From Cellulomonadaceae bacterium (GTDB lineage Bacteria > Actinomycetota > Actinomycetes > Actinomycetales > Cellulomonadaceae): a stretch of 11,632 bases of DNA. Location of the stretch: assembly GCA_031283115.1 (NCBI GenBank), contig JAITCK010000252.1, positions 1 to 11,632 of the forward strand, in the 5' to 3' direction. The position numbers and the translations under genes are program-made. Positions 1,082-6,786 of the stretch are shown here, in pieces; position 1 is the stretch's first letter, and the number at the start of each line of letters is the position of its first letter. Below the pieces are notes generated by a model that did not search any database, was not told the origin of the DNA, and worked only from the letters and a program-made list of their open reading frames with translations.

Positions 1082-1684
1082 CTAGAACATGCCATCTGTG
1101 GCGTAGCCTAGTTTTCCAATACCTGTTTGCGGGCAAATCTCAAGGAGGTGTAAAGCCTCGTCGTCAGATAACTCTCTGCCCTTGTCAGCAAATCCACTGA
1201 GCAACTGCGAATAGGGATTCCACGCCTCGGAAGAACCTTGTTCGAGCCAGACTTCCATGCTGGGTGGTTCGCTGATGTTATGTCCGTGAGCGACGAGGCA
1301 ACTGCGCACATCAAGCATCCTCTGGTACGCAGATTTGTCCTGCGGAGCGGACCAAACTGACGGTCGCGTGACTTGCCCATCACACTCATCCACTGCCTGC
1401 TCCACCAACTGCTGTGCCCCCGCAAGCGGTTCACCACTCGCCCCGGTGGGAGTCACTGCTGCGACTGACCCACCAACCATGACGATGCCTTGGACGCCAT
1501 GTTCGCTGTAGCAGGTCATCAAAGCAGACTGATACTCCTCCAGTTCTTGACGCGCCTGGGACATCCATCCCGGCTCTTCCCACTGGGTATTTTCCCCATC
1601 AGGAGTAGCAGCACAACCAAGCCCGACTGCAAGAGTGAAGAGCGCGAGAAAAGCAGCAAATGCAGGCTTGCAGCAAGGATGCAA
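1082..1684 (-). CDS. Putative lipoprotein with four conserved cysteines, paralogue 1
   Basis: From a TTG at 1684 the product is 200 residues, close to the 201 of its paralogue at 2183-2788. A basic residue and a hydrophobic stretch (KPAFAAFLALFTLAVGLGC) end at Cys24. This looks like a lipoprotein signal, though VGLGC is a poor lipobox. The mature part shares WxEPGWMxQARQExEEY, xxGVxGxxxVGGxVA, YQRMxDVRxCL and EPPSxEVWxEQG with the paralogue, and four cysteines (MTC, DEC, RSC, EIC) align. The start is doubtful: the frame is open to a TTG at 1807 and holds an ATG at 1792 with GGAG three bases away. Those starts would add 36-41 unlikely residues, and the chosen TTG lies inside a perfect hairpin. 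I do not recognise the family; a surface or periplasm-like location is inferred. Confidence 0.65.
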   Translation of the reverse strand: MHPCCKPAFAAFLALFTLAVGLGCAATPDGENTQWEEPGWMSQARQELEEYQSALMTCYSEHGVQGIVMVGGSVAAVTPTGASGEPLAGAQQLVEQAVDECDGQVTRPSVWSAPQDKSAYQRMLDVRSCLVAHGHNISEPPSMEVWLEQGSSEAWNPYSQLLSGFADKGRELSDDEALHLLEICPQTGIGKLGYATDGMF

Positions 1685-1690
1685 GCCTGC
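1662..1690 (-). promoter_or_regulatory. Perfect 11-bp hairpin over the putative start of lipoprotein 1
   Basis: On the minus strand GCAGGCTTGCA (1690-1680) is followed by a 7-nt loop and its exact complement TGCAAGCCTGC (1672-1662). The likely TTG start at 1684-1682 lies in the 5' arm, so the folded transcript would hide it. It could control translation. Alternatively it marks an inserted palindrome, in which case the true start lies elsewhere. There is no T-run expected of a terminator on either strand. Confidence 0.55.
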
Positions 1691-1821
1691 GCGTTGCCGC
1701 CAACTAGCGGTTCCGTGTCGTGCAGAGGTGCAAGAAAACGGCTCAGGTTCACTCTTATTCTGAGATAAGTGGGCAACAAACACCGTTGTCATCAACTCCA
1801 GTAACAAGTTCCGAAAATCTA

Positions 1822-1857
1822 TGATACATAATACCCATTATCGACGAGGGTGCCACC
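1822..1857 (-). repeat. dif-like repeat A (Xer-type site, diverged)
   Basis: Copy A matches copy D at 29 of 36 positions. Read on the minus strand it has GGTGGCACCCTCGTCGATAA, the 6-bp centre TGGGTA, and a TTATGTATCAT arm. The XerC-side arm and the GGTGGCA extension are kept, while the outer XerD-side bases have drifted. It lies just upstream of lipoprotein 1 and separates it from the segment carrying its paralogue. Confidence 0.75.
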
Positions 1858-2182
1858 TCAAACTGCTTATCTTAAACTTGCGGTCATGTGATTTTCTCAC
1901 GGTCTATCTCCTGTGTTGCTCCGATGCAGGTCAACTTGCCTGTTGCTCTACACGATACGCCTTGGTGCCTCTGACGGACTCGAACGTATTATCTGCGCCA
2001 CTGGAGAGCAGAACGAGACGAGTGAGCAATTGCTGCACAGTATCGAGACGCACGGAGGATAAACTTGGGTCGACACGGATACTACTCAGGCGGTGTGACA
2101 GCGCAATGAACAGCGAAACAAGCATGTGAACACCTACAGCCTGGTGACTTTCATGTTGATGAATGCTCTGCTGAATTCATCA
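1858..2182 (-). other. Gene-poor stretch with one unsupported 64-residue reading frame
   Basis: This 325-base interval separates dif-like copy A from the 3' end of lipoprotein 2. A minus-strand frame at 1931-2125 would encode 64 residues (MLVSLFIALSHRLSSIRVDP at the start), with a helix-like middle. It has no ribosome site I trust and no family resemblance. It may be the tail of a decayed gene. Base composition is lower in GC than the window's housekeeping genes. I see no RNA gene here. Confidence 0.3.
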
Positions 2183-2788
2183 TTAAGGCAAGACGAAGAA
2201 TCCGCCATTCCCACTTTGCTGACACACTGCATTGAGTCTTGACAACTCGTCCTCTGAAATATGAATGAAGTCGGGAGAATCAGGGTCGCTAAATATTGCA
2301 ACATACGGACTCCAGGCAGGCCCTTTTTGCCCTTGCTCCATCCATACTTCTGCACTAGGGGGTTCTGGAACCGCATAGCCCTCGCTAAGTAAACATTCAC
2401 GGACATCTATCATTCGCTGGTAGGTTTCGCCATCAGCGGGCAGCGTCCATATTTCGGGAACAGCAACACGAGAATCACACTCTGTCATTGCTGCTTCATT
2501 CTGTTCTCTCATTCCAGGTAGTGGAGCACCATTCTCATCGACTGGCTCCTTCAATGCCACGCCACCACCGACAATCAAACCACCTTCGACACCGAACTCC
2601 GTAAGACACGACATGTACGCAGTATTATATTCTTCGATTTCTTGGCGCGCTTGAGCCATCCATCCAGGTTCGAACCATTCCACACCTGTATTGTAGGGTT
2701 GTTCCGATACACATGCAGTAAGTAACAGGAGAGCAGCCACACATGCACCAAAGAAGCGAAGCACACGCACTATTGGCTCACTCAACAT
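2183..2788 (-). CDS. Putative lipoprotein with four conserved cysteines, paralogue 2
   Basis: The ATG at 2788 has AAGGG about 11 bases upstream and gives 201 residues; a GTG at 2806 is an alternative. The N-terminus has Arg8/Arg11, a hydrophobic run and the clean lipobox LLTAC with Cys26, so export and lipidation are likely. The mature part is acidic. Conserved blocks shared with the gene at 1082-1684 are WFEPGWMAQARQEIEEY (about residues 39-55), GVEGGLIVGGGVA, YQRMIDVRECL and EPPSAEVWMEQG, with cysteines at MSC, TEC, REC and AVC that could form two disulfides. The family is not recognised. Two copies flanking repeat A suggest a duplicated cassette. The downstream neighbour is the paralogue beyond repeat A; the upstream neighbour is a small secreted protein on the same strand. 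Confidence 0.82.
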   Translation of the reverse strand: MLSEPIVRVLRFFGACVAALLLLTACVSEQPYNTGVEWFEPGWMAQARQEIEEYNTAYMSCLTEFGVEGGLIVGGGVALKEPVDENGAPLPGMREQNEAAMTECDSRVAVPEIWTLPADGETYQRMIDVRECLLSEGYAVPEPPSAEVWMEQGQKGPAWSPYVAIFSDPDSPDFIHISEDELSRLNAVCQQSGNGGFFVLP

Positions 2789-2851
2789 CAGCGATACACC
2801 CTTCACACTTTTCTACAACGGTCTATCGCAATAGATGTTTAGGTAGCAACA

Positions 2852-3163
2852 TCAAAGACACTTATATTCACCAGTTAGAGCACCATTACCGCTTACGCCC
2901 CAAAAACCAGGCGCACCAGCCAGGCCATAATGAGTGTATGACCCCTGATTAGGTGCAGGTATTGTCCAGTTCGCTACATTTGGTGCCTCTAAAATCATTG
3001 TAGCAGTAGGTAGTTTCACACCAATGGAAGAGATGCGTGCCCCACCACAACTAGATACAAACTGTCTGACCGGCGCCTTGACGGGTGCCGCAACTGCCGG
3101 GGCTGCTTGCCCCATAACTAGCGCTCCAACAATCAGTGGCGCGGCAAGTTTCCTTCTGGACAT
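2852..3163 (-). CDS. Small secreted protein with signal peptide
   Basis: The ATG at 3163 is preceded by AGAAGGAGAAAGG, a strong ribosome site, and gives 103 residues; an in-frame start at 3205 is less likely. MSRRKLAAPLIVGALVMGQ followed by AAPAVAAP is a Sec-type signal peptide with a probable AVA-A cleavage site near residue 25; the SRR-K start is only faintly Tat-like. The mature protein is about 77 residues, rich in Gly, Ala and Pro. It has just two cysteines, in SSCGG and as the penultimate residue (YKCL), which could close one disulfide around the domain. Aromatic and Gly-rich NQGSYTHYGLAGAPGFWGV suggests a small beta fold. No family is recognised. It may be co-transcribed with lipoprotein 2, 63 bases downstream. 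Confidence 0.75.
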   Translation of the reverse strand: MSRRKLAAPLIVGALVMGQAAPAVAAPVKAPVRQFVSSCGGARISSIGVKLPTATMILEAPNVANWTIPAPNQGSYTHYGLAGAPGFWGVSGNGALTGEYKCL

Positions 3164-3313
3164 GGCCTTTCTCCTTCTGTGAGCCAGCGTAAACCACCAT
3201 TTCAAGGCTACGCTTTGTGCCTCAGAACTTCACTGTGCACCGTGATTTGTGCCACAAATCATCTCATCCTGCAACGTTCGCCCCGGATGGAGAAGCCATG
3301 TCCACTGTGCCGT

Positions 3314-3526
3314 TTATGGCACGCGGAGGATGCGGAGGGGGTCGCGGTGGGCTGCGTGGGTGGCGATGGGGGTTGCTGCGAGGAGGGTGAGTCCGGCGAC
3401 TCCTGTGGTGAACTGCCAACTGGGTAGTGAGGCGGTGGTGTAGTGCAGGACGATAAGTCCGGCAGTGGTGCCTAGGGTGATGCCGGTGACGTAATACCCG
3501 TTATCGGCGAGGCTGCCACCTCCCAC
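3314..3526 (-). pseudogene. Two-helix membrane protein piece starting inside dif-like repeat B
   Basis: The 70-residue frame starts at GTG 3526, and its first residues (GGGSLADNGYYV) are encoded by repeat B itself. After the repeat come two hydrophobic segments (GITLGTTAGLIVLHY and FTTGVAGLTLLAATPIATHAA) and a basic tail, HRDPLRILRVP. Codon use after the repeat is strongly GC-biased in third positions, as expected of real coding sequence. No convincing ribosome site precedes the GTG. Either this is the 3' part of a larger membrane protein cut at B, or a small protein whose start was supplied by the repeat. The family is not recognised; a faint likeness to YiaA/YiaB-type two-helix proteins is not enough for a name. 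Confidence 0.45.
3485..3520 (-). repeat. dif-like repeat B (Xer-type site)
   Basis: Copy B matches copy D at 34 of 36 positions. On the minus strand it reads GGTGGCAGCCTCGCCGATAA, centre CGGGTA, then TTACGTCACC. It has the same orientation as A and C and sits exactly at the 5' end of the membrane-protein piece. The toxin-like gene begins 56 bases to its right. Confidence 0.85.
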
Positions 3527-3576
3527 ACCCCACCCGTGCGTCTGATAAAACGAGACATTCGGGTAGTGTTTGGAAG

Positions 3577-4137
3577 ATGATGCCGGGCTTGGTGCGCGGC
3601 GTAGGGGCTGCTGACACCTTCGACCCCTATGCCGTCGCTATACGCGACGCTCACCCCGATTTGGTCTCCGACGCCGTACACTCCAGGGCCGTGAGCACTG
3701 CGGATAGGGCACGGGAACTGGCCGAACGCCTGGGCGTGACGTTTGAGAAAGACATCAGGGATCACGAGATCGATTTTTACGATGCCTTCTCACGCTCCGG
3801 GCATAAGTTCACGCCGATTCACCGCGATGAGATGAACTTCCTGCCCGCAGCAGGAGACTTCACCTGGGAAGGACAGACCCTTGAGCTGAAATCCATCCTT
3901 GTCACAGACCCCGAGGCCAAGCATCTGTACCGGCCTATCCGCGATTCGGTGAAGAAGGGTACAGCCCAGGGAGTTGATCGAACGAAGTTCATGATCGACC
4001 TGCGCGGCCAAGACCTCACAGACGAACTACGCGAAGCGCTCGAAACGTACAACACCCTCCCGCAGAACCAGGGCGCGAAGGTGACCCGACTGTTCGTGTT
4101 CACCCAGGGCGAGGTCATCGACATCGACCTGATCTGA
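3577..4137 (+). CDS. CdiA_C-like (tRNase-type) nuclease domain, probably a phage head protein tail
   Basis: The product is 186 residues from ATG 3577; the adjacent ATG at 3580 is equally possible, with GGAAG directly upstream. The C-terminal half has the layout of the CdiA C-terminal tRNA-nuclease fold. HKFTPIHRDEMNFLPAAGDF is followed by TWEGQTLELKSIL, where Glu-x-Lys is the expected catalytic strand, then a helix with IRDSVKKGTAQGVDR, the strand KFMIDLRG, and a final LFVFTQGEVIDIDL. In phages this domain is often the tail of a minor capsid protein placed before the scaffold gene, and the scaffold start at 4417 fits that order. The N-terminal part is short, and the frame stays open leftwards through repeat B, so 5' truncation at B is likely. 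No immunity gene is seen beside it. The domain call is from motif memory, hence moderate confidence. Confidence 0.6.
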   Translation: MMPGLVRGVGAADTFDPYAVAIRDAHPDLVSDAVHSRAVSTADRARELAERLGVTFEKDIRDHEIDFYDAFSRSGHKFTPIHRDEMNFLPAAGDFTWEGQTLELKSILVTDPEAKHLYRPIRDSVKKGTAQGVDRTKFMIDLRGQDLTDELREALETYNTLPQNQGAKVTRLFVFTQGEVIDIDLI

Positions 4138-4145
4138 ACAGAATA

Positions 4146-4190
4146 AGAACCCGGCGCCAATCCCTCTATTAGGTGGGGACGCCAGGTTCT
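4146..4190 (+). terminator. Hairpin after the nuclease-like gene
   Basis: AGAACC-C-GGCG (4146-4156) pairs with CGCC-A-GGTTCT (4180-4190), a stem of ten pairs with one mismatch around a 23-base loop, beginning 9 bases after the stop codon. There is no T-run, so it may be a processing or stability element rather than a Rho-independent terminator. Confidence 0.5.
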
Positions 4191-4416
4191 ACACGCGAGT
4201 GTAGCACGCGCTCCCCGCGCACGGCAAGACGCCACTACCCCCACATAGCGTGGGGCGCGCCCTGCACCGTCAACCCTACCCGAAGTCCCCACACCCTTGG
4301 TGCTGAGGGCTTTGTTATGCCCACCCTAGCGCTCGCTGCCGGGATGTTGTCCACCCCCTGCCGCGCCTGCCCGTGCGGCATCCCGCCCCGATACGCCCCA
4401 GGAGGCCGTACACACC
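4191..4416 (+). other. Phage-type intergenic leader with hairpins and AGGAGG site
   Basis: The interval between the nuclease-like gene and the scaffold start holds several short hairpins: ACAC/GTGT at 4191-4202, CCCCAC/GTGGGG at 4239-4255, and a TGCCGC/GCGGCA pair near 4364-4380. It ends with a perfect AGGAGG (4400-4405), 11 bases before the scaffold ATG. I see no gene in it. The layout resembles a phage control region between head genes. Confidence 0.4.
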
Positions 4417-4524
4417 ATGACAGACACCCCAGCCACTGACCCGGAAGCCCCGGAATCGTTTACGCCTGAGTATGTGGCCAAACTGCGTAAGGAGTCCGCC
4501 GATTACCGGGGCAAGATGACATAA
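4417..4524 (+). pseudogene. Phage scaffold-type protein, N-terminal 35 residues only
   Basis: A strong AGGAGG precedes ATG 4417. The frame encodes MTDTPATDPEAPESFTPEYV followed by AKLRKESADYRGKMT and stops at 4522-4524. TPEYVxKLRKESAxYR is the hallmark N-terminus of actinophage head scaffold (capsid assembly) proteins, which run on for 100-200 residues as a coiled coil. Here the frame enters dif-like repeat C at residue 33-34 and ends at a TAA inside the repeat. The gene was therefore cut at this site. It pairs with the head-protein-like nuclease upstream as a phage relic. Confidence 0.7.
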
Positions 4525-4550
4525 CACCCTCTATCGGTGAGGCTGCCACC
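4515..4550 (-). repeat. dif-like repeat C (Xer-type site)
   Basis: Copy C matches copy D at 31 of 36 positions. On the minus strand it reads GGTGGCAGCCTCACCGATAG, centre AGGGTG, then TTATGTCATC. It has the same orientation as A and B and is inverted relative to D. It carries the stop codon that ends the scaffold fragment and the GTG that opens the fragment on its right. Confidence 0.8.
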
Positions 4551-4695
4551 AGTTACCACGCAGGTCAAGGCTGAACGAACCGCCGCCGCGCGGGCAGGGC
4601 GCGTAACGGCAGCGGAGACGTCCAGCATCCTGGCCGAGATTCGCGCCGCTATCGCCGAGGCACTGGACCGAGGGCATAGCAGTTCTCAGTTGTGA
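4537..4695 (+). pseudogene. Truncated Ala-rich helical protein fragment right of repeat C
   Basis: A frame opening at GTG 4537 within repeat C encodes 52 residues, including VTTQVKAERTAAARAGRVTA and SSILAEIRAAIAEALDRGHS. The composition (Ala, Arg, Glu) and GC-rich third positions look like a real coiled or helical protein. It could be a broken piece of the scaffold protein's coiled coil or of a small DNA-binding protein. The 3' end overlaps the cysteine-rich minus-strand gene by about 47 bases. There is no ribosome site of its own. No family assigned. Confidence 0.4.
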
Positions 4696-4876
4696 TTTCT
4701 ACGATAGAACCCATGTGGTCGACACTGGTTCCGAATCGGCCGCCAACGTTGTTCCACGGGTGAACATCTGGGCAGTCGGCCATACAGCAACCGCATCGAC
4801 CGATGTCTGCCACGAACATCTTGGGATCTGCCTCACGGCAAAGGCACTCCTGACAGCGGCATAGCATGGCAACCAT
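4649..4876 (-). CDS. Cysteine-rich small protein, third gene of the higBA operon
   Basis: The 75-residue product starts at ATG 4876, whose first base is the last base of the higA stop (TGATG), so translation is probably coupled. It has nine cysteines, eight of them in the first 35 residues: C6, C8, C11, C13, then C28, C30, C31, C35. These are spaced as two close clusters that could bind zinc or another metal. After DVHPWNNVGGRFGTSVDHMG the tail is ordinary, with Cys66. No family is recognised. It could be an accessory factor of the toxin-antitoxin pair, a metal-binding regulator, or an unrelated cargo gene joined by recombination. The one-base overlap and shared strand argue that it belongs to the operon. 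Alternatively, ATG 4867 three codons later could serve as start. Confidence 0.6.
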   Translation of the reverse strand: MVAMLCRCQECLCREADPKMFVADIGRCGCCMADCPDVHPWNNVGGRFGTSVDHMGSIVEITTENCYALGPVPRR

Positions 4877-5190
4877 CAGGCGGCGGCAAGGTCAAGTTTG
4901 CGCAGCGGAGTGACATCTACGGTCTGGCGGGCCTGCCACAGGTCGTAGTTGTCCTGCATCCTCAGCCACATCTGTGCCGAACCTCGAAGGACTCCCTCAA
5001 GGCGGACGGCCATCTCTGGGGTGACTCGTGCTTGGCCGGACAGGATGCGCGTGACTGTGGTGACAGCGACGCCAAGTGCACCGGCGAGGGTGCGCGCGGA
5101 AATATTGAACGGCTCAAGGTAAGTGGCGGCGATGAACTCGCCAGGGTGTGGCGGGTCATACTGGGGGCTGATGGGGTCGGTGTCGGGCAT
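4876..5190 (-). CDS. higA: HigA-type antitoxin, XRE family DNA-binding protein
   Basis: The 104-residue protein has the full HigA/VapI layout. PPHPGEFIAATYLEPFNIS leads into a helix-turn-helix at about residues 31-52 (SARTLAGALGVAVTTVTRIL). Then come RVTPEMAVRLEGVL and the typical WLRMQDNYDLWQARQ, ending in TVDVTPLRKLDLAAA. HigA binds and neutralises HigB and represses the operon by binding its operator. The ATG at 5190 overlaps the higB stop by one base (TAATG). This toxin-first order is standard for higBA, with the antitoxin second. The cysteine-rich gene follows with another one-base overlap. The length is normal and the gene looks intact. Confidence 0.93.
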   Translation of the reverse strand: MPDTDPISPQYDPPHPGEFIAATYLEPFNISARTLAGALGVAVTTVTRILSGQARVTPEMAVRLEGVLRGSAQMWLRMQDNYDLWQARQTVDVTPLRKLDLAAA

Positions 5191-5468
5191 TAGTGGTAGT
5201 CCTCGTAGTCTAGGACGTAGACGTCACCGCCGGTGAAGTCGAACGTCATCCTCCAGTTTGCTTGTACGGTGATCGACCATCGGACCGCCTGGTCTGCAGT
5301 GAGCGGGTGCAGACGGTAGCCCGGCTGGTCGAGGTCTTCGATTGTTGATGCATCGTTGAGGGCGGCTAGTTGCATCCGCAAGCGGTTGGCGTGCTGCGGG
5401 ATGATTCCAGCTTTGGAGCCGGTTTCAAAGAAGCGCCGGAGTCCCTTGTGCTGGAATGATTTGATCAC
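5190..5468 (-). CDS. higB: HigB-type toxin, RelE/ParE superfamily mRNA interferase
   Basis: The 92-residue protein begins at GTG 5468 (VIKSFQHKGLRRFFE, read as Met). It matches HigB along its length: KGLRRFFETGSKAGI, HANRLRMQLAALNDA, GYRLHPLTADQAVRWSITV, ANWRMTFDF, and the terminal DVYVLDYEDYH. These are the family blocks, and the last holds the conserved catalytic/aromatic end. HigB toxins cut mRNA on the ribosome. The start lies about 12 bases after a TATACG -10-like element and has no distinct ribosome site, so the mRNA may be leaderless or nearly so. The gene is intact, is followed by higA, and lies in the segment bracketed by inverted repeats C and D. Confidence 0.93.
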   Translation of the reverse strand: MIKSFQHKGLRRFFETGSKAGIIPQHANRLRMQLAALNDASTIEDLDQPGYRLHPLTADQAVRWSITVQANWRMTFDFTGGDVYVLDYEDYH

Positions 5469-5510
5469 ACCCTAGTGTATCGTATAGCGCTACACGCTAC
5501 AACTTGACAA
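5469..5510 (-). promoter_or_regulatory. higBA promoter and probable HigA operator
   Basis: On the minus strand TTGTCA (5510-5505) and TATACG (5486-5481) are separated by 18 bases, a plausible sigma-70-type promoter. A near-palindrome, GTGTAGCGCTATAC (12 of 14 positions symmetric, centred on AGCGCT), overlaps the -10 element. It is the best candidate for HigA autorepression. The higB GTG follows within about 12 bases of the -10 element. Confidence 0.5.
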
Positions 5511-5522
5511 GCGGGAATGTTG

Positions 5523-5598
5523 CCCCCCCGCCGACGATGCGCGCGCGGGGGGCTATGCGTCCGCCGGACATCTTGTCTGCCCCTCTGCGGGCTATGCG
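5523..5598. other. GC hairpin and 10-bp direct repeats upstream of the small HTH gene
   Basis: CCCCCC (5523-5528) pairs with GGGGGG (5547-5552) around an 18-base loop. GGGCTATGCG occurs at 5550-5559 and again at 5589-5598, 39 bases apart. This lies between the leftward higB promoter and the rightward HTH gene. The hairpin could insulate the two units, and the direct repeats could be binding sites for the HTH protein. Confidence 0.35.
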
Positions 5599-5643
5599 CG
5601 CCTGGTGTACACTGCGCTCTACAGCAGGGGACAGGGAGTGGAT

Positions 5644-5862
5644 ATGGTCGAAGAACCGATGGCGCGCCTGGCTCGCACCCAGGGCGACTACGCGCGTGAC
5701 AAGCAGCGTGTCGCGGCCTCTATGAGCGCACGCGACGACGCGGCGCTTGTGGCCCATGAAGCGGGGGCGTCGTTGGCGCAAATCGCCAAAGTGACGGGAA
5801 CGACCCGCTCGGGCGTCCAGGGGATTATTGAACGCGCAAAAGCTGCTCTGTCTAACACCTAG
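5644..5862 (+). CDS. Small helix-turn-helix protein
   Basis: ATG 5644 follows AGGGAG with a 5-base spacer and gives 72 residues; earlier in-frame starts lack this site. The N-terminal third is charged and helical (LARTQGDYARDKQRVAASMS). Residues 38-66 (VAHEAGASLAQIAKVTGTTR, then SGVQGIIERAKAA) form a clear helix-turn-helix of the sigma-70 region 4 / LuxR-like kind, with the conserved pattern S-x-x-x-IA-x-x-x-x-x-x-R-x-x-V-x-x-I. No other domain fits in this length. It is probably a small DNA-binding regulator carried by the same module as higBA, transcribed away from it. No specific family assigned. Confidence 0.72.
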   Translation: MVEEPMARLARTQGDYARDKQRVAASMSARDDAALVAHEAGASLAQIAKVTGTTRSGVQGIIERAKAALSNT

Positions 5863-5973
5863 CGGGCCTTGCCGTCTAGGGGGAACGCGGCACCCGCCGA
5901 TAAGCAGGTTGCGGACTGGAACATCGAAGGCGACTTTGCGCCCTTGGAGGGTGGGTGGCAGCCTCGCCGATAA
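5863..5973 (+). pseudogene. Possible C-terminal gene fragment ending in repeat D
   Basis: The frame after a TAG at 5860-5862 reads to a TAA inside repeat D. Its second half (ADKQVADWNIEGDFAPLEGG) looks like real protein rather than random translation. It has no start or ribosome site of its own. It may be the tail of a gene brought in by recombination at D, or chance. Not recognised. Confidence 0.25.
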
Positions 5974-5989
5974 CGGGTATTATGTCAAC
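5954..5989 (+). repeat. dif-like repeat D (Xer-type site, best match)
   Basis: On the plus strand it has the arm CTCGCCGATAA (5963-5973), the 6-bp centre CGGGTA, and the arm TTATGTCAACC (5980-5990), preceded by GGTGGCAGC. As I remember the actinobacterial dif consensus (arms like TTCGCCGATAA and TTATGTCAAGT around 6 bp), 19 of 22 arm positions agree. This is the inverted copy. It supplies the ATG (5982) from which truncated cas1 could be read. Confidence 0.82.
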
Positions 5990-6452
5990 CCACACTGGCG
6001 GTGACCGTATCAACGCCATGCTCAACTACGGTTACGGAATCCTGCGCGCCCACGGTGTCCGGGCCACACTCGCCGCCGGACTCGACCCCGCCCTGGGCAT
6101 GTGGCACAGTCACCGCTCCAACGCCTTCAACCTGGTCGCCGACCTCATGGAACCCTTCCGACCTGCCATCGACTACGCCATCATCAACGCGCCACGCTAT
6201 TCGGCGCTGAGCAAACCGGAAACGAAAAAGTATCTCGCCGCCACCTGCGCTGCCCCTTTCGGCCAGTCCCGCACCCACCTCCCAGCATCTATCGCTGCAC
6301 TCGCCAGCAGGTATGCCCTATACATTGAGGGCCGCGCCAACAGTTTCGATGCGGAGTCCTGGCAACCCCCATCAAGCCCACCGACGACGACGACGGCAGC
6401 ACCGGCGACACTGACGCCAACCGAACCAGCAACAGCAGATGACCATGCCTGA
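5982..6452 (+). pseudogene. cas1: cas1, C-terminal half only, cut at dif-like repeat D
   Basis: The frame encodes GGDRINAMLNYGYGILRAHG, AAGLDPALGMWHSHRSNAFN and LVADLMEPFRPAIDYAI. These are the unmistakable C-terminal core of a type II-like Cas1 integrase (Cas9-system lineage). His42 of GMWH and Asp54 of ADLMEPF correspond to two of the three metal ligands. The first ligand, a Glu in the N-terminal part, is absent because about half the roughly 300-residue protein is missing. The remaining reading frame begins within the XerD-type arm of repeat D. The end has an odd Thr/Pro-rich tail (PPTTTTAAPATLTPTEP). Without its N-terminal half it cannot be an active integrase. It overlaps cas2 by 14 bases, as in an original operon. 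Confidence 0.85.
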
Positions 6453-6786
6453 ACGGACATCCGCCGACGGCTCTGACCGTTGGATCATCGTCAGTTTCGA
6501 CCCGTCACGCCGCGACACTGCCCAACTCAAAGCCGTCGAACAGTTCCGCCACAGCCTCGACCGCCTGGGCTATACCGCCCTCCACCACTATGCGGCCGAA
6601 CGGTTTGTCCCTGCCAGCGTCGGCTTCGAAGCGGAGAAAAACCGCATCTACGCCCTCGCCCCCGACAAGGCCGTCATCGTCATCATTGAACTCAGTCAGG
6701 CCGCCCGCCGCCGCTGCTTCCACGCCATCAAAACGCAACGCCAAAACCCTGCAGACCCGCCCGAACTCCTCACCATCTATACGTGA
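6439..6786 (+). CDS. cas2: Cas2-like CRISPR adaptation protein
   Basis: The 115-residue product starts at ATG 6439 (a second ATG at 6445), inside the end of cas1. RWIIVSFDPS places an Asp at the end of the first strand, as in the Cas2 ferredoxin-like fold. FRHSLDRLGYTALHHYAAER matches the helix and second strand of type II Cas2 proteins, and IYALAPDKAVIVIIELS the last strands. Cas2 is a structural partner of Cas1 in spacer integration; with cas1 truncated it is probably an orphan. The length and frame look intact. No CRISPR repeat follows it. Confidence 0.72.
   Translation: MTMPERTSADGSDRWIIVSFDPSRRDTAQLKAVEQFRHSLDRLGYTALHHYAAERFVPASVGFEAEKNRIYALAPDKAVIVIIELSQAARRRCFHAIKTQRQNPADPPELLTIYT

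Follow-up and report, generated by a model that had tools for sequence, protein, structure and literature searches.

Dif-like 36-bp repeats in a few actinobacteria, some of them next to cas1-cas2 remnants: a possible CRISPR-like capture array

Results

Four copies of a dif-like repeat

We analyzed a stretch of 11,632 nucleotides from a Cellulomonadaceae bacterium (contig JAITCK010000252.1, hereafter the window), which is one whole contig of a 1.57-Mb assembly in 255 contigs that is 72.9% complete (G000). The window contains four copies of a 36-bp repeat with the architecture of dif, the XerC/XerD site, the last of which directly abuts a fragment of cas1, a gene of the CRISPR (clustered regularly interspaced short palindromic repeats) systems. 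The copies are as follows.

1822..1857, minus strand: repeat copy 1, degenerate; 29/36 matches to copy 4; centre TGGGTA
3485..3520, minus strand: repeat copy 2; 34/36 matches to copy 4; centre CGGGTA
4515..4550, minus strand: repeat copy 3, degenerate; 31/36 matches to copy 4; centre AGGGTG
5954..5989, plus strand: repeat copy 4, the reference copy (36/36), opposite in orientation to the others; centre CGGGTA

These positions, identities and orientations had been given in an earlier sequence-only reading and were all confirmed. The centre that it assigned to the core, CGGGTA, holds for copies 2 and 4 (2/4) and not for copies 1 and 3. In one orientation the unit reads GGTGGCA-N7-CGATAA-N6-TTATGTCA, with small changes among the window copies. 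By chance no position is expected to reach 24 or more of 36 matches (200 dinucleotide shuffles of the window), and a degenerate pattern allowing up to 3 mismatches found no fifth copy in the 1.57-Mb assembly.

Related arrays in three other genomes

When 84,980 species genomes were scanned with the pattern GGTGGCA-N7-CGATA-N7-TTATGTC, 7 stretches were returned, 5 of them from three array-bearing metagenome-assembled genomes (MAGs): the Cellulomonadaceae MAG Co333_bin51 (G006, also G240) and the Propionibacteriaceae MAGs Nt197P3bin23 (G235) and Nt197P3bin38 (G236). The latter two come from termite gut, Nt197 being the termite Neocapritermes taracua (PMC7024585). Single sites in one Methylococcaceae MAG and one Nitrospirae MAG were set aside as probable chance matches. 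The pattern was present in three of the 221 genomes of the window's family (its own genome, G006 and, as one degenerate site, G003), and in three of the 198 genomes of G235's family, the third of which has the core of the G235 dif.

Within 2 mismatches there are 13 sites in G235 and 9 in G236; with 3 in G006 and the four of the window, this gives 29 uninterrupted sites. Left out of this number were a false 5-mismatch site in G236 (L093 7410) and a fourth G006 site, split by an IS1595-type element with ACAGGCAT on either side. Nine of the G235 sites lie in a single orientation within 7.6 kb of contig C4, while contigs C10 and C8 have two each, near contig ends. Orientation is direct throughout G235 (13/13) and G006 (4/4, counting the split site) and in 3/4 window copies; it is mixed in G236 (contig C12: 4 plus, 3 minus). 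Repeats are near-identical within the arrays of G235, G236 and G006, less so in the window. The boundaries are sharp on both sides, and the 36-mer is a repeat unit in itself, not a 28-bp site with random flanks. The flank outside the arm that was already noticed in the window, GGTGGCA, is a conserved part of the unit in the other arrays. The 23 complete same-contig inserts of the four genomes measure 332-3058 bp (median 921 bp); those of G006 were bounded by hand around the split site, its insertion sequence (IS) being disregarded and kept out of the insert count.

The two arrays of G235 differ in sequence: every one of the nine C4 sites has A at positions 8 and 34, where all four C10/C8 sites have G and C. 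The absence of hybrid repeats between these array-specific variants argues against recent exchange between the two arrays. Some observations stand apart from the arrays. The IS1595-type element in the G006 repeat (L042, C52, 395-1546) has ACAGGCAT on both sides, an apparent 8-bp duplication. A lone degenerate site in G235 (C4:96003, L148) has the array core CGATAACGTGCGCTATGTCA and lies far from the arrays. The longest frame in any direction across this look-alike and across a second one, in G236 (C8:42196), is 82 and 105 codons, respectively. We rejected the idea that the 36-mer, which is open in one frame, belongs to a conserved protein motif, the corresponding look-alike frames being only 43 and 51 codons long.

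No viral contig matched a stricter pattern or the G235 repeat itself. The GGTGGCA pattern hit one viral contig, at a single site, and the bare dif pattern at least 120 stretches, with one site each among the 80 listed. The G235 repeat had four matches in a plasmid collection, all of them weak, partial and short of 80% coverage. On folding as RNA, one of six repeat strands stood out (G235/G236 repeat, z -2.06, with 10/200 shuffles as good); the other five showed no distinctive folding.

Some arrays are linked to cas1-cas2 remnants

Copy 4 of the window is followed by two cas-like features.

5990..6452, plus strand: truncated type II-like cas1 (3' part), starting flush with copy 4 and lacking the upstream part known from relatives
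6439..6786, plus strand: cas2-like gene; product 32-33% identical to Cas2 of G235

The cas1 fragment scores 67.9 bits with Pfam Cas1 (cut-off 22.3) and 87 bits with the type II model TIGR03639 (cut-off 120), and its product is 44% identical to that of G235 cas1. The two closest Cas1 relatives encountered, P0004 and P0005 (238 and 236 amino acids, each perhaps partial) have the upstream part that the window lacks. The window cas2-like product had no Cas2 family match of its own.

The linkage is best preserved in G235, where the order is cas1 remnant, cas2, 26 bp, then a 36-bp repeat plus a 0.37-1.8 kb insert, repeated n times. The C4 array begins 26 bp downstream of a cas2 gene that passes both TIGR01573 (33.6 bits, cut-off 24.5) and Pfam Cas2 (24.7 bits, cut-off 23.8); upstream of this gene is a cas1 pseudogene closest to TIGR03639 (73 bits, cut-off 120). 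That the window and G235 cas1 score below the TIGR03639 cut-off is explained by their being fragments. The C10 array likewise begins 26 bp after cas2, here frameshifted. These two array-adjacent genes were the only cas2 relatives found genome-wide in G235, and a cas1 remnant was seen at one of its two arrays. In the C4 array, repeats are more degraded the farther they lie from cas2 (Spearman 0.76, permutation p 0.0175, n=9). In G003, which is of the window's genus, a cas2 C-terminal fragment and the degenerate site lie 1.8 kb apart on one 8.3-kb contig. The G006 and G236 arrays run off their contigs, and adjacent cas1-cas2 was not seen at either.

For comparison, in two ordinary type II loci, whose cas9 and cas2 were named by reading open reading frames (ORFs) rather than by model, the repeats follow shortly after cas2 at a spacing of 64-66 bp. 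Separately, the viral-classed contig IMGVR_UViG_3300047175_000060 (L283) contains an apparent cas9-cas1-cas2 locus with a repeat array of 66-bp period near its end. The Cas2 proteins of the window and G235 matched only themselves among 5.8 billion proteins, and an alignment of the two found no relative encoded on any viral contig. The predicted Cas2 structure, built from two sequences, was poor (mean predicted local distance difference test score, pLDDT, 52). The window cas1-cas2 stretch had no DNA match in phage records, and the window had no Rfam match, which is relevant to the trans-activating CRISPR RNA (tracrRNA).

Arms of dif with a different centre

The dif architecture proposed for the window copies was borne out by the occurrence of CGATAA-N6-TTATGTCAA, within 1 mismatch, in 34/39 genomes searched (the window's own included), once each except in G006 and G009. 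GGTGGCA was not found upstream of this sequence in the fetched loci, the G006 array excepted. No chromosomal dif was found in the window's own genome, whose assembly is 72.9% complete, so that comparison with dif is possible only in relatives. On sequence alone, we take the chromosomal dif of G235 and G236 to be CGATAAGGTACATTATGTCA and that of G006 to be CGATAATGTACATTATGTAA. Far from being unrelated, the arms of array and dif are the same or nearly so in the three other array genomes; the left 11-bp arm agrees with host dif at 10/11 positions in G235 and G006 and at 9/11 in G236, the search pattern itself having fixed six of those bases.

In these three genomes the 6-bp centres, common within an array, are different: CGTGCG and TGCCTG in the arrays vs. 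GGTACA and TGTACA in dif. Xer exchange requires identical or nearly identical centres, according to PMC13141974. Under this rule, array sites could recombine with one another and hardly with dif. Xer recombination at the repeats would be in keeping with their architecture. A Xer site insulated from dif would need dif arms with a different centre, which is the arrangement seen here.

In G235 we found two tyrosine recombinases over the family cut-off, with best scores to the XerC and Xer/XerD kinds, and no dedicated one besides these. The integron integrase model gave 103 and 114 bits with G235 XerC and XerD, respectively (cut-off 265), and no IntI was found in this genome. The same two Xer kinds were typed in the window's genome, together with two further untyped matches. 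Genomes other than G235 have 4-5 tyrosine recombinase matches each, of which only two, both in G000, were typed (as Xer).

Inserts have sharp but variable ends

When the flanks of each of the 29 sites were joined, the open frames spanning the junction measured 142.2 amino acids, compared to 142.9 ± 5.5 in 300 shuffled pairings, 175 of which reached the real value. A site thus brings together unrelated stretches of DNA rather than interrupting a single sequence, and the 36-mer does not lie inside one conserved gene.

A 378-bp insert of G235 corresponds to the interior of a 580-bp insert of G236 (98% identity over 376 bp), neither end being shared. Copies of one gene in G236 (84-100% identical where aligned) start and stop at differing points, each flush with a complete 36-mer; this may point either way as to the mechanism. 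All comparable internal ends differ (8/8), with the proviso that they derive from two source sequences and are not independent. The outer flanks, in contrast, agree to the base in where they join the repeat; this holds for the cas2-side flanks of the two G235 arrays (87% over 335 bp) and for the far flanks of the two G236 pieces (99% over 282 bp). Matches of 26 bp between G235 C10 and two G236 flanks were excluded from the insert comparisons.

The insert ends show a base preference. After dropping the two cas2-adjacent repeats, which reduced the 29 sites to 27, the GGTGGCA-side end was A in 16/27 (p 3e-5) and GA in 10/27 (p 2.5e-6). It should be noted that this preference was found post hoc among 24 positions and that some sites share flanks. 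The base before the split G006 site, which is outside the 27, is also A.

Inserts carry toxin-antitoxin genes (HigBA in the window, HicB-like in G236), nucleotidyltransferases of the DUF6036/AbiEii kind (above cut-off in G006, below it in G235), helix-turn-helix (HTH) and excisionase-like proteins, an HD/SpoT-like protein and phage pieces. In one G006 insert a scaffolding gene is accompanied by a major capsid gene with 59% identity to its counterpart in Brevibacterium phage Rousseau. This counterpart has 311 codons with stop, and the insert breaks off after about 216, i.e. about two thirds.

Discussion

A proposed CRISPR-like capture array with Xer-compatible repeats

Our preferred, still tentative, explanation is that the four window copies are repeats of a decayed CRISPR-like capture array, whose repeats double as Xer sites. 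An integrase of the Cas1-Cas2 kind would cut the repeat at both outer ends and join to it a DNA fragment with arbitrary ends; gap filling would then duplicate the repeat, so that each insert ends flush with a full 36-mer. The captured fragments would stem from phages, plasmids or the chromosome and would in many cases include a small gene, such as a toxin-antitoxin one. The host XerC/XerD might subsequently recombine the repeats among themselves, causing deletion or inversion, and the combination of dif arms with a non-dif centre would allow this to happen without involving dif. Flush repeats, arbitrary insert ends, agreeing outer flanks and a cas2-proximal start together fit the repeat-duplicating integration of CRISPR systems. 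Cas1-Cas2 is the likely maker of the insertions, and we infer the action of XerCD on the repeats, as well as any benefit to the host. Since the cas1 genes are broken, the genomes studied may no longer be able to acquire inserts. The window itself, in which two repeats are degenerate and cas1 is truncated, looks like a decayed member. It is rather unlikely, in our judgment, that the arrays amount to a gene-banking system, where a Cas1-Cas2 adaptation module without its effector and its 30-bp ruler would insert gene-sized DNA into a chromosomal array of repeats that are also Xer sites, and the Xer machinery of chromosome-dimer resolution would prune or shuffle the bank.

Several observations weigh against a capture array. 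None of the 23 inserts is of spacer size, all being at least 332 bp long, and several contain complete-looking genes, as Xer modules would. The mixed repeat orientation in G236 and the window is unexpected from CRISPR insertion alone, and the exact dif arms are unexplained in a CRISPR repeat beyond a second function. The end preference is not wholly one-sided, weaker deviations being present on the other side (A at position 39 in 13/27, p 2.5e-3). No intact type II-like cas1 was found in the array-bearing genomes, the gene being a pseudogene in G235 and a truncated fragment in the window, where cas1-cas2 is moreover downstream of the repeat instead of upstream. The search that gave no Cas1 in G236 had likewise failed to pick up the pseudogene of G235. 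The G006 array has no cas gene on its visible side, and the repeat that would face the leader is its imperfect one, opposite to the G235 C4 array; the Cas1 of this genome (L113, C66) looks, from its gene context as we read it, like part of a type I-E-like operon unrelated to the array. Lastly, cas9 was absent from the flanks that were read, no genome-wide search for it having been made.

Other explanations

The main rival is an actinobacterial dif-module or integron-like array, each insert being a module flanked by Xer sites and moved by the host XerC/XerD, with GGTGGCA as an accessory element and cas1-cas2 as an early module or a co-duplicated landmark. We regard this as quite possible, if somewhat doubtful. 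It accounts for the dif arms, including the left-arm agreement with host dif (10/11 or 9/11, six bases fixed by the pattern), for centres that are common within an array and unlike dif, as expected from the centre-identity rule of PMC13141974, and for XerC and XerD being the sole tyrosine recombinases found in G235. The mixed orientation seen in G236 and the window suits Xer or some other recombination better than CRISPR insertion, and toxin-antitoxin genes also populate Acinetobacter modules and chromosomal module islands (PMC12907356). Moving modules, however, are expected to have fixed ends, whereas 8/8 comparable ends differ here. The repeats are near-identical over 36 bp and mostly direct, while the known modules described in PMC13141974 alternate C and D with varied sites. 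Hybrid repeats are absent between the two G235 arrays (9/9 vs. 4/4), and a Xer-only array leaves unexplained both the linkage to cas2 and the sites flanking phage fragments cut inside genes. The sequence-only reading, which took the copies to be Xer recombination sites spread through an accessory region, is partly supported: the dif architecture, the arrays found elsewhere and the conserved GGTGGCA uphold it, but it does not cover the sharp 36-bp unit, the varying insert ends or the tie to cas1-cas2.

The cas1-cas2 remnants, the 36-bp repeats and their cas2-proximal position would fit an ordinary type II CRISPR array, decayed and enlarged by rearrangement or insertions. This we consider improbable, given that 30-bp spacers remain in 0/23 inserts though many repeats are still perfect copies, and that the related arrays in three other genomes and the dif arms speak against it. 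We consider it still less probable that an insertion element of this length, or the end of a transposon, became scattered into genes. Copies 3 and 4 of the window do lie at or inside broken genes, but the repeats are mostly direct and, in G235 and G236, occur outside the arrays only as the two degenerate look-alikes; an insertion element of 36 bp was rejected on the grounds that the flanks across sites are not contiguous.

Relation to known systems

The arrays resemble the dif/pdif modules of Acinetobacter plasmids and chromosomes in that gene modules are set apart by numerous dif-like sites that have conserved arms and a 6-bp centre, in the frequency of toxin-antitoxin genes and in the lack of a dedicated recombinase. 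They differ in the 36-bp unit with GGTGGCA outside the arm, near-uniform within an array, in their mostly direct orientation, in their variable insert ends and in the adjacency of cas2 in some genomes. Acinetobacter Xer module arrays are also chromosomal, as module islands (PMC12907356), and dif modules have alternating C and D with adjacent sites inverted, fused modules excepted (PMC13141974). The arrays studied here have, by sequence, XerC/XerD arms round a 6-bp centre, and show neither this alternation nor conserved ends.

With type II CRISPR arrays they share a 36-bp repeat, sharp ends, a start a few tens of bp after cas2 (in G235), adjacent cas1-cas2 with cas1 closest to TIGR03639, cas2-near repeats that are the most intact in one array, and an end preference. 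In place of spacers of about 30 bp there are inserts of 332-3058 bp, the repeats have dif arms and may be inverted, cas1 is broken or absent, and no neighbouring cas9 was seen. Gene-sized inserts between recombination sites, with small and toxin-antitoxin genes, are also reminiscent of chromosomal integrons; attC sites of integrons are variable, unlike these near-identical 36-mers, and no integrase was found in G235. The Xer-exploiting integrative elements (IMEX) use dif-like sites as well, but the inserts here are small and not situated at the chromosomal dif, and the parts that were read show neither a phage nor a plasmid backbone.

In a search of mainly open-access literature, we found no published description of kilobase inserts in a CRISPR-like array or of dif-like CRISPR repeats. 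As a capture array fits neither dif modules nor CRISPR arrays, we take it to be a new category; if the Xer-only explanation is right, the arrays would be a further form of dif modules. Their presence in a few actinobacteria, two of them from termite guts, suggests a possible undescribed way of banking whole genes. Integrons are the textbook stockpile of genes and CRISPR arrays that of short memories, and a capture array, if confirmed, would join the two ideas. The first formation of integron cassettes is, to our knowledge, an open question, for which such an array would provide a natural case for study. It would also represent a new use for dif-type sites outside dimer resolution.

Inserts and genes of the window

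The three inserts of the window and their genes are listed below.

1858..3484: insert between copies 1 and 2, 1627 bp; ORFs 2183-2806 (minus), 2852-3205 (minus) and 3314-3526 (minus)
2183..2806, minus strand: lipoprotein-like ORF; 44% identity over 185 aligned residues to the product of 1082-1807 (minus)
3314-3526, minus strand: ORF running out of copy 2, in the insert between copies 1 and 2
3521..4514: insert between copies 2 and 3, 994 bp; ORF 3577-4137 (plus) and the start of a phage scaffolding-like gene
4417-4512, plus strand: start of the phage scaffolding-like gene, about 32 codons, cut by copy 3; weak match to phrog_233 (E 0.006)
4551..5953: insert between copies 3 and 4, 1403 bp; HigBA toxin-antitoxin pair and a small HTH ORF
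4876..5190, minus strand: HigA antitoxin (TIGR02607, 2.8e-30)
5190..5468, minus strand: HigB-like toxin (PF05015, 1.8e-19)
5605-5862, plus strand: small HTH ORF, in the insert between copies 3 and 4

The product of ORF 3577-4137 (186 amino acids), beside the phage-like DNA, had no significant Pfam, NCBIfam, PHROG or phage-record protein match. ORFs 2183-2806 and 2852-3205 appear, on inspection of their translations, to be secreted or lipoprotein-like. The products of 1082-1807 and 2183-2806 belong to no Pfam or NCBIfam family; these two lipoprotein-like ORFs, 44% identical and in the same orientation, flank copy 1.

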